Shown here: positions 54,413 through 56,669 of the stretch, in pieces | Layout: every line of letters begins with the position of its first letter | Position numbering within the stretch: position 1 is the stretch's first letter | Source of the DNA: Alistipes sp. | Lineage (GTDB): Bacteria; Bacteroidota; Bacteroidia; Bacteroidales; Rikenellaceae | Length of the DNA: 64,000 nucleotides | Direction: 5' to 3' | Assembly: GCA_022767745.1 (NCBI GenBank) | Contig: JALENN010000006.1 | Location: 248,001-312,000 of the forward strand | Position numbers and translations under genes: made by a program | The notes under the pieces: model-generated | What the model saw: only the letters and a program-made list of their open reading frames with translations | What the model was told of the DNA's origin: nothing | Databases searched by the model: none

Positions 54413-54988
54413 TCACTCCTCCGACACGGCATCCTTGACGGCCTTGAGTTTCACGGCCAGCCATATGCGGAATATGCCGTAGAAGATCATCGCCGTCGAG
54501 AAGAAGGCCACGACGAACACGCCACCGAAGATCGGCGAGCTGAAGATGAACACCAGCGAGAAGATGAAGCCGACGATGGCCAGCGCCAGCAGCCAGCCCC
54601 AGCCGCGCACGCCCACCGAACCGAGCTCCGATGTCCAGCCTATGGCCCACACCGAGCGCAGCATGATCCAGAATCCCACGAAGTATATCAGCACGGCCGT
54701 GGCGGCGGGAGCGGGGCTTGCGGCCAGCATCACACCCAGCAGCAGGTCGATGATACCGCCCGCGAGGGTCCAACCCCAGCCGCGCATGCGGCGGTTGCCC
54801 ACGGCGAAGACCACCTCGAACAGGCCGCTGACGAAGAAGGCCACGATGAAGAGCATGGTCAGCGCGCCGAGCGTGGCCAGCGGCGTGAAGAAACACCACA
54901 CTCCCAGAACGACGGCCAGCAGGCCGATTATGAGCGACGTCCACCAGTGGCGTACGGCGCCGCGCATCTCTTCTACCAAATCTTTCAT
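54413..54988 (-). CDS. HdeD-like (DUF308) membrane protein
   Basis: A 191-residue protein with six hydrophobic helices in three repeated pairs, as in E. coli HdeD: WWTSLIIGLLAVVLGVWCFF, TMLFIVAFFVSGLFEVVFAV, GWGWTLAGGIIDLLLGVMLAA, IYFVGFWIMLRSVWAIGW, then a matching third pair. HdeD is linked to acid resistance at high cell density, but its mechanism is not known. The start MKDLVEEMRG at 54988 is preferred over the track start by signal-free N-terminal similarity. The upstream region holds three spaced GAC-N5-GTC sites. Confidence 0.85.
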   Translation of the reverse strand: MKDLVEEMRGAVRHWWTSLIIGLLAVVLGVWCFFTPLATLGALTMLFIVAFFVSGLFEVVFAVGNRRMRGWGWTLAGGIIDLLLGVMLAASPAPAATAVLIYFVGFWIMLRSVWAIGWTSELGSVGVRGWGWLLALAIVGFIFSLVFIFSSPIFGGVFVVAFFSTAMIFYGIFRIWLAVKLKAVKDAVSEE

Positions 54989-55107
54989 AACTGTCACTTT
55001 TTTAGGTTTCAATGTATCCGTTATCTACCCCTTCGAGCTGCAAATTGCATGCCCCGCGCCGCAGGCGGCCGCCCGCAACCCCGGCCGTGACGCATTGACA
55101 CCCGCAC

Positions 55108-55164
55108 CCGACAAACGGTCACACCGCGCCGACAAAGCGTCAGATGACGGCCGACAAAAGGTCA
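55108..55164. promoter_or_regulatory. Three spaced CCGACAAAnnGTCA repeats, operator-like array
   Basis: CCGACAAACGGTCA (55108-55121), CCGACAAAGCGTCA (55129-55142) and CCGACAAAAGGTCA (55151-55164) start 21 and 22 bp apart, so they sit on the same face of the helix. Each contains GAC-N5-GTC, an 11 bp inverted half-site pair. They lie 120-177 bp upstream of the HdeD-like ATG and just after the DUF1080-PHP stop. A weaker GTGACGCATTGACAC lies at about 55087-55101. Confidence 0.6.
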
Positions 55165-55175
55165 GCCGCCCCCGC

Positions 55176-55205
55176 ACGACGCAAAGCGGCGGCACCCCGT
55201 GGAAG
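55176..55205 (-). terminator. Terminator after the DUF1080-PHP gene
   Basis: GCGGCGGCACC pairs perfectly with GGTGCCGCCGC around an 8 nt loop. Only three T follow on the minus strand, so efficiency is uncertain. Confidence 0.6.
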
Positions 55206-55238
55206 GTGCCGCCGCATGCACAGAGCCCCTACGGGCGC

Positions 55239-56669
55239 TTACCACTTGTTGTATATCACCACGGGGCGCGAGCGGCGCACGCTCATCGACGGGAACCACA
55301 TGTCCTCCGCCGTAAGGCCGCACTCGCGGACCGCATCGACACAATACTCCAGACGGCCGAAGTCGGCGTCGACATTGTTGGTGCCGAACGTGAACTTGAT
55401 GCCCATCTCCTTGGCGCGGCGTATGATGTCGAAGCTCGGGATGCGGTAGCGGGCGTTGATCTCCAGCGCTATGCCGTAGCGGCGCAGCACCTCCAGCACG
55501 CGGTCGACACGTTCCCCGGTCCAGTACTTCGCGTAGTCGGCCTGCATATCCTCGGGCAGGTAGGTCGGGTTGGCGTAGATGTCGGCAGGCTCGTTGGTGA
55601 GGATTTTGACGGTCTGGTCGACCAGATGGTCCATGTACTGCTCCCTGGTTATGCCGTCGTAGTGCACCTCCTCGGGGCGGTAGATGCGCGAGAGGCGGCC
55701 GCGGTGGTCGACAATGGTCATGGCGTCGGTGAAGAGGTAGTCGAATACGCCCAGCGCCTCCTGCGAGAAGGTAGCGGTCCACTTGCGCCCCTCGCCCTGC
55801 ACGCCGCGCAGGAAGGGCATGTCCTTCACCTCGTCGAAGTAGTCATACACCTCGGCATCGTCGGCCAGCATGCGGCCCACGCCGCCCTCGCCCGCATTGG
55901 GGGCCACACCGTAGTTGATGCCGTAGTTCATCGACATGGCGTGCGCCATCTCCTTCGTCAGGCCGCCCTTCAGGTGGACGTGGTAGTCGATGACGGGGAA
56001 ATCCTGCTGCTGGAGGCGTATCACGCCGTCCGTGCGCTCGTCCACCACGGCCATCGTGTCGGCCTCGTTGCGCACCGTGTCGCGCAGGCGCACCACGCTC
56101 ATGTCGCGGAACGTCACGCTGCCCGCAATGCCGCGCAGCGCCAGCATGCCGTAGCCCAGACGGCGGTCGGCATACTCGTCGGTGCGGTAGGGCTCGTCGG
56201 GTTCGGTGTAGCACACCACCTCGGTGCCCGCTATCGATACCGTGATGTTGCGGCCGCGCACCGCCACCTCGAAGTCGAACCACTCGCCGTCCTCGGCCAG
56301 CGAGCGGTAGAGGTTGCGCACCGCCGCCAGCGAGCCGCTCTTGCGCGTGCCGTCGATGGCGCCGTTGCGGAACAGCACCTCGTATCCGCCCTTCGTCCCA
56401 TCGGTGTGGAACGCCAGCGCCGCCTCGCCGCCGGGCGAGGTGAAGGCCTGGCCCCGCAGCATGAAGTTGCCGTACTCGCCATCGGCCAGCCATGTCTCGC
56501 CCGCCGCGACGGTAATCTCGCTGCCGCGGCTCACGCCGCCCGACATGTTGCGGAAGCGGTCGAGCGGAATGGCCACATCGTACCGCACACACCCCACGGC
56601 AACCGCCGCGGCGGCCGCCATGACCAGAAGGCGCCGCGCGCCCCCGAGTCCAAAATCGTAGATCTTCAT
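55239..56669 (-). CDS. DUF1080 (3-keto-disaccharide hydrolase-like) plus PHP-like domain fusion lipoprotein
   Basis: A 476-residue exported protein, probably a lipoprotein (AAVAVGC, Cys27). Residues about 45-195 form a jelly roll like DUF1080/LamG domains: GGYEVLFRNGAIDGTRKSGS, DGEWFDFEVAVRGRNITVSIAG, LGYGMLALRGIAGSVTFRDMSVVRL. DUF1080 enzymes cleave 3-keto-glycosides. Residues about 223-460 look like a PHP/amidohydrolase barrel: FPVIDYHVHLKGG (HxH, 230/232), VDHRGRLSRIYRPEEV, and ALEINARYRIPSFDIIRRAKEMGIKFTFGTNN. The usual late SDAH metal motif appears as TNNVDAD without His, so the site may be altered. Last gene of the run with GH116 and the unassigned glycosidase. Confidence 0.7.
   Translation of the reverse strand: MKIYDFGLGGARRLLVMAAAAAVAVGCVRYDVAIPLDRFRNMSGGVSRGSEITVAAGETWLADGEYGNFMLRGQAFTSPGGEAALAFHTDGTKGGYEVLFRNGAIDGTRKSGSLAAVRNLYRSLAEDGEWFDFEVAVRGRNITVSIAGTEVVCYTEPDEPYRTDEYADRRLGYGMLALRGIAGSVTFRDMSVVRLRDTVRNEADTMAVVDERTDGVIRLQQQDFPVIDYHVHLKGGLTKEMAHAMSMNYGINYGVAPNAGEGGVGRMLADDAEVYDYFDEVKDMPFLRGVQGEGRKWTATFSQEALGVFDYLFTDAMTIVDHRGRLSRIYRPEEVHYDGITREQYMDHLVDQTVKILTNEPADIYANPTYLPEDMQADYAKYWTGERVDRVLEVLRRYGIALEINARYRIPSFDIIRRAKEMGIKFTFGTNNVDADFGRLEYCVDAVRECGLTAEDMWFPSMSVRRSRPVVIYNKW

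Follow-up and report, generated by a model that had tools for sequence, protein, structure and literature searches.

The gap upstream of the HdeD-like gene in the analysed window (a 64,000-nucleotide stretch of an Alistipes sp. contig) carries four phased palindromic sites followed by a sigma-54 promoter, and we consider it very probable, judging from sequence, that these sites constitute an enhancer from which an orphan activator switches on hdeD within a sigma-54 heat-shock/envelope regulon. The gene (54413..54988, minus strand) encodes a 191-aa HdeD-like membrane protein (DUF308; Pfam PF03729, E 4.8e-13), and the array spans 55088-55164 on the same strand. A first-pass annotation had recorded three GAC-N5-GTC sites at intervals of 21 and 22 bp; these are real and exactly spaced (exact plus-strand copies of CCGACAAANNGTCA at 55108, 55129 and 55151), but a fourth, diverged site had been missed and GAC-N5-GTC proved to be the core of a larger unit, the 13-bp imperfect palindrome TGACA-N3-TGTCA (minus-strand reading TGACNNTTTGTCG). 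The predicted enhancer sites, all on the minus strand and each matching 8 of 10 palindrome positions, are site 1 (TGACCTTTTGTCG, 55152..55164), site 2 (TGACGCTTTGTCG, 55130..55142), site 3 (TGACCGTTTGTCG, 55109..55121) and the diverged site 4 (TGTCAATGCGTCA, 55088..55100), with start-to-start spacings of 22, 21 and 21 bp. Four sites with at least 8/10 palindrome positions were observed in 150 bp, whereas the expectation under dinucleotide shuffling is 0.014 (none of 5000 shuffles reached four). Within the window, CCGACAAANNGTCA at two mismatches yielded three further, scattered matches; in the genome the exact triple was unique, and at most one mismatch gave 13 matches versus 6 in the backward control. 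The sole other site pair in this genome (G000:C13:69108) and a second TGAC-N4-TGTC pair in a relative (G023:C21) were both rejected, as they lie inside coding genes. Random genome-wide spacing of the motif had been named as a sign against the array; this objection does not hold either, as no second intergenic array of this kind was found in the genome. Furthermore, the placement of the array 120-177 bp from the start codon agrees with the HdeD-like ATG at 54988, and the earlier statement that it is uncovered by any coding gene stands (i.e. no plausible gene was found over the array, a 755-aa antisense frame being dismissed as a mechanical GC-rich ORF). An Rfam scan returned only sub-threshold chance matches.

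The earlier view of a phased activator or repressor array at a stress-type gene was right about the phased regulator array (with an activator now favoured), but had overlooked the sigma-54 promoter. This -24/-12 element (GGGCATGCAATTTGCA, 55039..55054, minus strand; also given as GGCATGCAATTTGCA, 55039-55053) has the form GG-N10-GC, with 10 bp between the GG of the -24 and the GC of the -12 element, and matches 9 of 11 positions of TGGCAY-N5-TTGCW, its -24 element reading GGGCAT and not TGGCAC. It lies just downstream of the sites (as GGGCATGCAATTTGCAGC), where conservation within the gap is highest, and GGCATGNNATTTGCAGC is kept in all four orthologous gaps. An enhancer (UAS) requires palindromic sites upstream of such a promoter, and the four TGACA-N3-TGTCA-like sites lie 110, 88, 67 and 46 bp (sites 1 to 4) upstream of the -24 element, which is, as read from the predicted elements, enhancer geometry. 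The strict sigma-54 pattern GGCAYRNNNNTTGCA on its own gave matches that were mostly coding and near control level, plus one at an antiporter-type gene. The latter (L115, G000:C11:326460) is an intergenic sigma-54-like promoter, GGCACGACGCTTGCA, situated 58 bp before an NhaD-like antiporter gene (named from sequence by eye), with only weak palindromes upstream. As regards the remainder of the gap, the hdeD orthologues share a conserved stretch, GATAACGGATA (window 55013-55030, minus strand; one base different in L039), which lies between start codon and -12 element and is possibly an untranslated-region element or a second promoter. On the far side of the array, a terminator scan of the gap called nothing, and a GC-rich hairpin read by eye (GCGGCGGCACC...GGTGCCGCCGC, 55180..55220, minus strand), with similar hairpins in L037-L039 and a T-run in L038, may terminate the upstream gene. 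This gene (55239..56669, minus strand; 476 aa, 3-keto-disaccharide hydrolase domain, Pfam PF06439) borders the gap, lies outside the module, and has its C-terminus encoded at the matching place in the relatives.

Searching 60 relatives at the DNA level gave no match to the gap, and it was a protein search that found the closest relatives. The closest HdeD orthologues (uncultured Alistipes, L037-L039; 83-85% identical, common start MKDLVEEM) share both the upstream gene and the gap, and four sites stand at matching positions in each of the three gaps with varying bases (e.g. TGACATGGTGTCA and CGACAAAGTGTCA in L039, TGACTTTTTGTCG twice in L038, TGACACTTTGTCT in L037, and, opposite the diverged site 4, TGACATTGCGTCG in L038). 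Because the alignment keeps the TGAC- and TGTC-type columns while the spacers have diverged, we defined the site as TGACA-N3-TGTCA; spacing and promoter are kept as well, and sites are enriched relative to shuffles in all four hdeD promoters (p at most 2e-4). The array is therefore present in the orthologous gap of three relatives, where its absence had been proposed as an argument against it. The suggestion that it tracks hdeD-like genes, on the other hand, fails beyond this Alistipes clade, as the module is missing from the HdeD homologues of other Bacteroidales that are 42-52% identical. Within the genus, five remote HdeD homologues (L018-L022, in G013, G012, G023, G007 and G032) have sigma-54 -24/-12 promoters approximately 55-90 bp before the gene, with a different upstream site or none recognised. 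Two of them (L020 and L022) carry the palindrome GTGTGGA-N5/6-TCCACAC 55 bp upstream of the sigma-54 promoter, which suggests a second, putative class of sigma-54 enhancer.

What the site does track, in the sequences compared, is chaperone genes with sigma-54 promoters rather than hdeD-like genes. The module stands before groES in the majority of 28 Bacteroidales and before hsp20 in several. Upstream regions of groES were inspected in 30 genomes, nearly all of which showed sigma-54 promoters; in the 28 whose upstream DNA was complete (on which the counts are based), 25 had a sigma-54 match of at least 9/11 (shuffles 1.3) and 20 carried, no more than 100 bp from the promoter, a palindrome matching at least 9/10 (shuffles 0.17). 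A composite pattern search recovered this arrangement upstream of hsp20 in G039 and of groESL in G015; in G038, hsp20 is preceded by a two-site version with two perfect sites. Searches for exact-pattern arrays in the 60 relatives and for a strict 18-base array in 394 further genomes were nearly empty (one unrelated case, L102, without a suitable downstream gene), because chaperone promoters hold single or degenerate sites. We also scanned the genome of the window itself (the window and 100 further stretches, ~2.05 Mb with small overlaps counted) for site plus promoter, using matrices from whose training HdeD and the window's clade had been excluded: htpG (33.6, rank 1) and groES (33.4, rank 2) stood clear of the backward-sequence control maximum of 25.4, clpB (25.8, rank 4) was only marginally over it and dnaK (20.6) under it. 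For HdeD, the highest score of any one site with its promoter was 20.1, within the range of the backward control, and the HdeD sites differ from the chaperone consensus in their outer bases; the case for HdeD rests on four phased, conserved sites and not on the single-site score.

Moreover, the distances from site to -24 element at groES cluster at approximately -25, -47, -57 and -78, which places them on a 10.5-bp lattice (R 0.93 over 17 genomes; p 6e-4 with unique offsets alone), although the groES data tested are also those in which the lattice was first seen and the test treats related genomes as independent, so that the p-values are indicative. With one shared offset reference for all genes, the four HdeD sites fall at most 0.6 bp off the groES lattice and those of htpG, clpB and dnaK at most 1.6 bp off it. 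On this lattice, the sites of all five genes (HdeD, groES, htpG, clpB and dnaK) would face the sigma-54 polymerase from one side.

The genome of the window (G000) encodes one RpoN (PF04552 at G000:C15:107041, E 7.5e-52), and two enhancer-binding-type proteins were found in it, one with GAFTGA and the other with GAFTDA. The former is an orphan of 408 aa (L088:5364-6590, on G000:C11) that has no sensor domain, an AAA+ sigma-54 interaction domain with a GAFTGA loop (PF00158, E 2.2e-67) and a C-terminal Fis-type HTH (PF02954, E 4.3e-09, residues 362-401); its gene neighbours are lptE, a gene for a TPR-like protein and secG. Sigma-54 activators are described as having an invariant GAFTGA motif (PMC12316311). 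Since the orphan is the only GAFTGA protein among those found in this assembly, and the sole enhancer-binding type in G038 (which has the perfect hsp20 sites), it is the prime candidate for the activator. Between its AAA+ lid and HTH runs a linker of ~90 residues with a helix-like stretch, ERELLYKILFDMRSDINDLKRML, that is similar in G038; since the orphan lacks a sensor domain, we regard the linker as a candidate signal-input region. A further type, widespread in the genus (L057, L058, L061 and similar loci), is a receiver-AAA+ protein that has GAFTSA and ends without an HTH, and is probably not a sigma-54 activator despite its strong PF00158 match.

The most serious alternative, which we hold to be rather unlikely, accepts the array and the sigma-54 promoter as described and assigns the activation to another protein, for instance the second enhancer-binding-type protein of this genome (type C, L075) or one absent from the assembly. 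Type C does possess a receiver domain and a Fis-type HTH, and occurs in G000 and G061-G063, and the assembly is 93.27% complete, so that a further activator may be missing; however, type C reads GAFTDA in place of the sigma-54 contact motif, G038 has the sites yet the orphan type only, and in G063, among the proteins read, GAFTGA likewise occurs in the orphan only. It is improbable that an unrelated repressor or activator acts here on a housekeeping promoter, with the -24/-12 match a coincidence. Although other regulator families also use tandem phased operators, and GATAACGGATA is conserved downstream of the -12 element, a scan for sigma-70-type promoters (whose models do not cover Bacteroidota primary promoters) found no match in the gap, the -24/-12 element is kept in four orthologues, and the pairing of site and promoter recurs at groES and hsp20 in fixed helical phase. 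Much less probable still are LytTR-type direct repeats: the LytTR consensus has a ACCGTTTGT-like core in repeats ~21 bp apart, so that the period fits and one site does read ACCGTTTGT, but this is one of the four window sites, it is lost in the relatives, and these keep TGAC and TGTC instead of the LytTR core, for which reason the candidate was rejected. A chance or selfish intergenic repeat without regulatory role, of the sort that a GC-rich genome with many short repeats could supply, is scarcely credible given that no copies of the array exist elsewhere in the genome, that its position is conserved in the orthologues with sites standing amid diverged spacers, and that shuffles rarely match it (p at most 2e-4).

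Under the preferred reading of an orphan-driven sigma-54 enhancer, an AAA+ enhancer-binding protein (most likely the sensor-less orphan encoded with lptE, the TPR protein gene and secG) would bind the TGACA-N3-TGTCA sites, two helical turns apart on one face of the DNA, and contact the sigma-54 RNA polymerase at the -24/-12 promoter (55039-55054); its use of ATP would open the promoter, and the HdeD-like gene would be transcribed, presumably upon a protein or envelope stress signal. By binding the activator cooperatively, several weak sites probably stand in for a single strong one. Expression of groES and htpG, and probably also of clpB and dnaK, would depend on this type of site and on that activator; since groES and htpG would share both with hdeD, the latter would belong to the sigma-54 heat-shock/envelope regulon. 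As to the wider proposition that heat shock in Bacteroidales is run by sigma-54 and one sensor-less, lptE-linked orphan whose recognition site, TGACA-N3-TGTCA, keeps a fixed helical phase to the promoter, we see the chances as evenly balanced. If true, it would link both the chaperones and an HdeD-type membrane protein to the state of the envelope or of LPS assembly, and would represent a heat-shock logic without a sigma-32-type factor.

In proteobacteria, enhancers of the NtrC/PspF type consist of palindromic sites ~50-150 bp upstream of a -24/-12 promoter that are bound by an AAA+ activator, PspF being devoid of a sensor domain. The module described here resembles them in its palindromic sites before a -24/-12 promoter and in its sensor-less candidate activator, and differs from them in its site sequence, in having four tandem sites in strict helical phase, and in a candidate activator whose gene sits with lptE-secG and whose HTH follows a long linker. 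The hdeD gene of Escherichia coli is an acid-resistance gene that encodes, within a stress regulon, a homologous DUF308/HdeD membrane protein, and it is not known to be sigma-54 dependent. The control of heat-shock genes in Bacteroidota is poorly described, and the closest precedent is the sigma-54 (SM4) regulon of Flavobacterium psychrophilum, in which -24/-12 promoters have been mapped upstream of groESL, lon, dnaK, grpE-dnaJ, htpG and clpB (PMC9723704). The genome of that species likewise has a sigma-54 regulator gene next to lptE, whereas the main text of the study contains no enhancer motif, activator for the chaperone cluster or HdeD (PMC9723704). Computed sigma-54 regulons of Bacteroidota are enriched in GroEL/ES, IbpA, GrpE and DnaK, and for this predicted chaperone cluster the passages found give promoter matrices only, with no upstream sites for chaperone genes and no HdeD (PMC12316311). 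In the literature searched (with most subscription journals outside the search) we found no description of TGACA-N3-TGTCA as a chaperone enhancer, of its activator, or of HdeD in the regulon. Sigma-54 chaperone promoters are thus already known from Flavobacterium, while the enhancer motif, its activator and HdeD membership appear new; to these promoters our analysis adds a specific enhancer sequence, a candidate activator with its regulon, a positional rule (the 10.5-bp lattice) and, as a predicted member of the chaperone regulon, an HdeD-family membrane protein.
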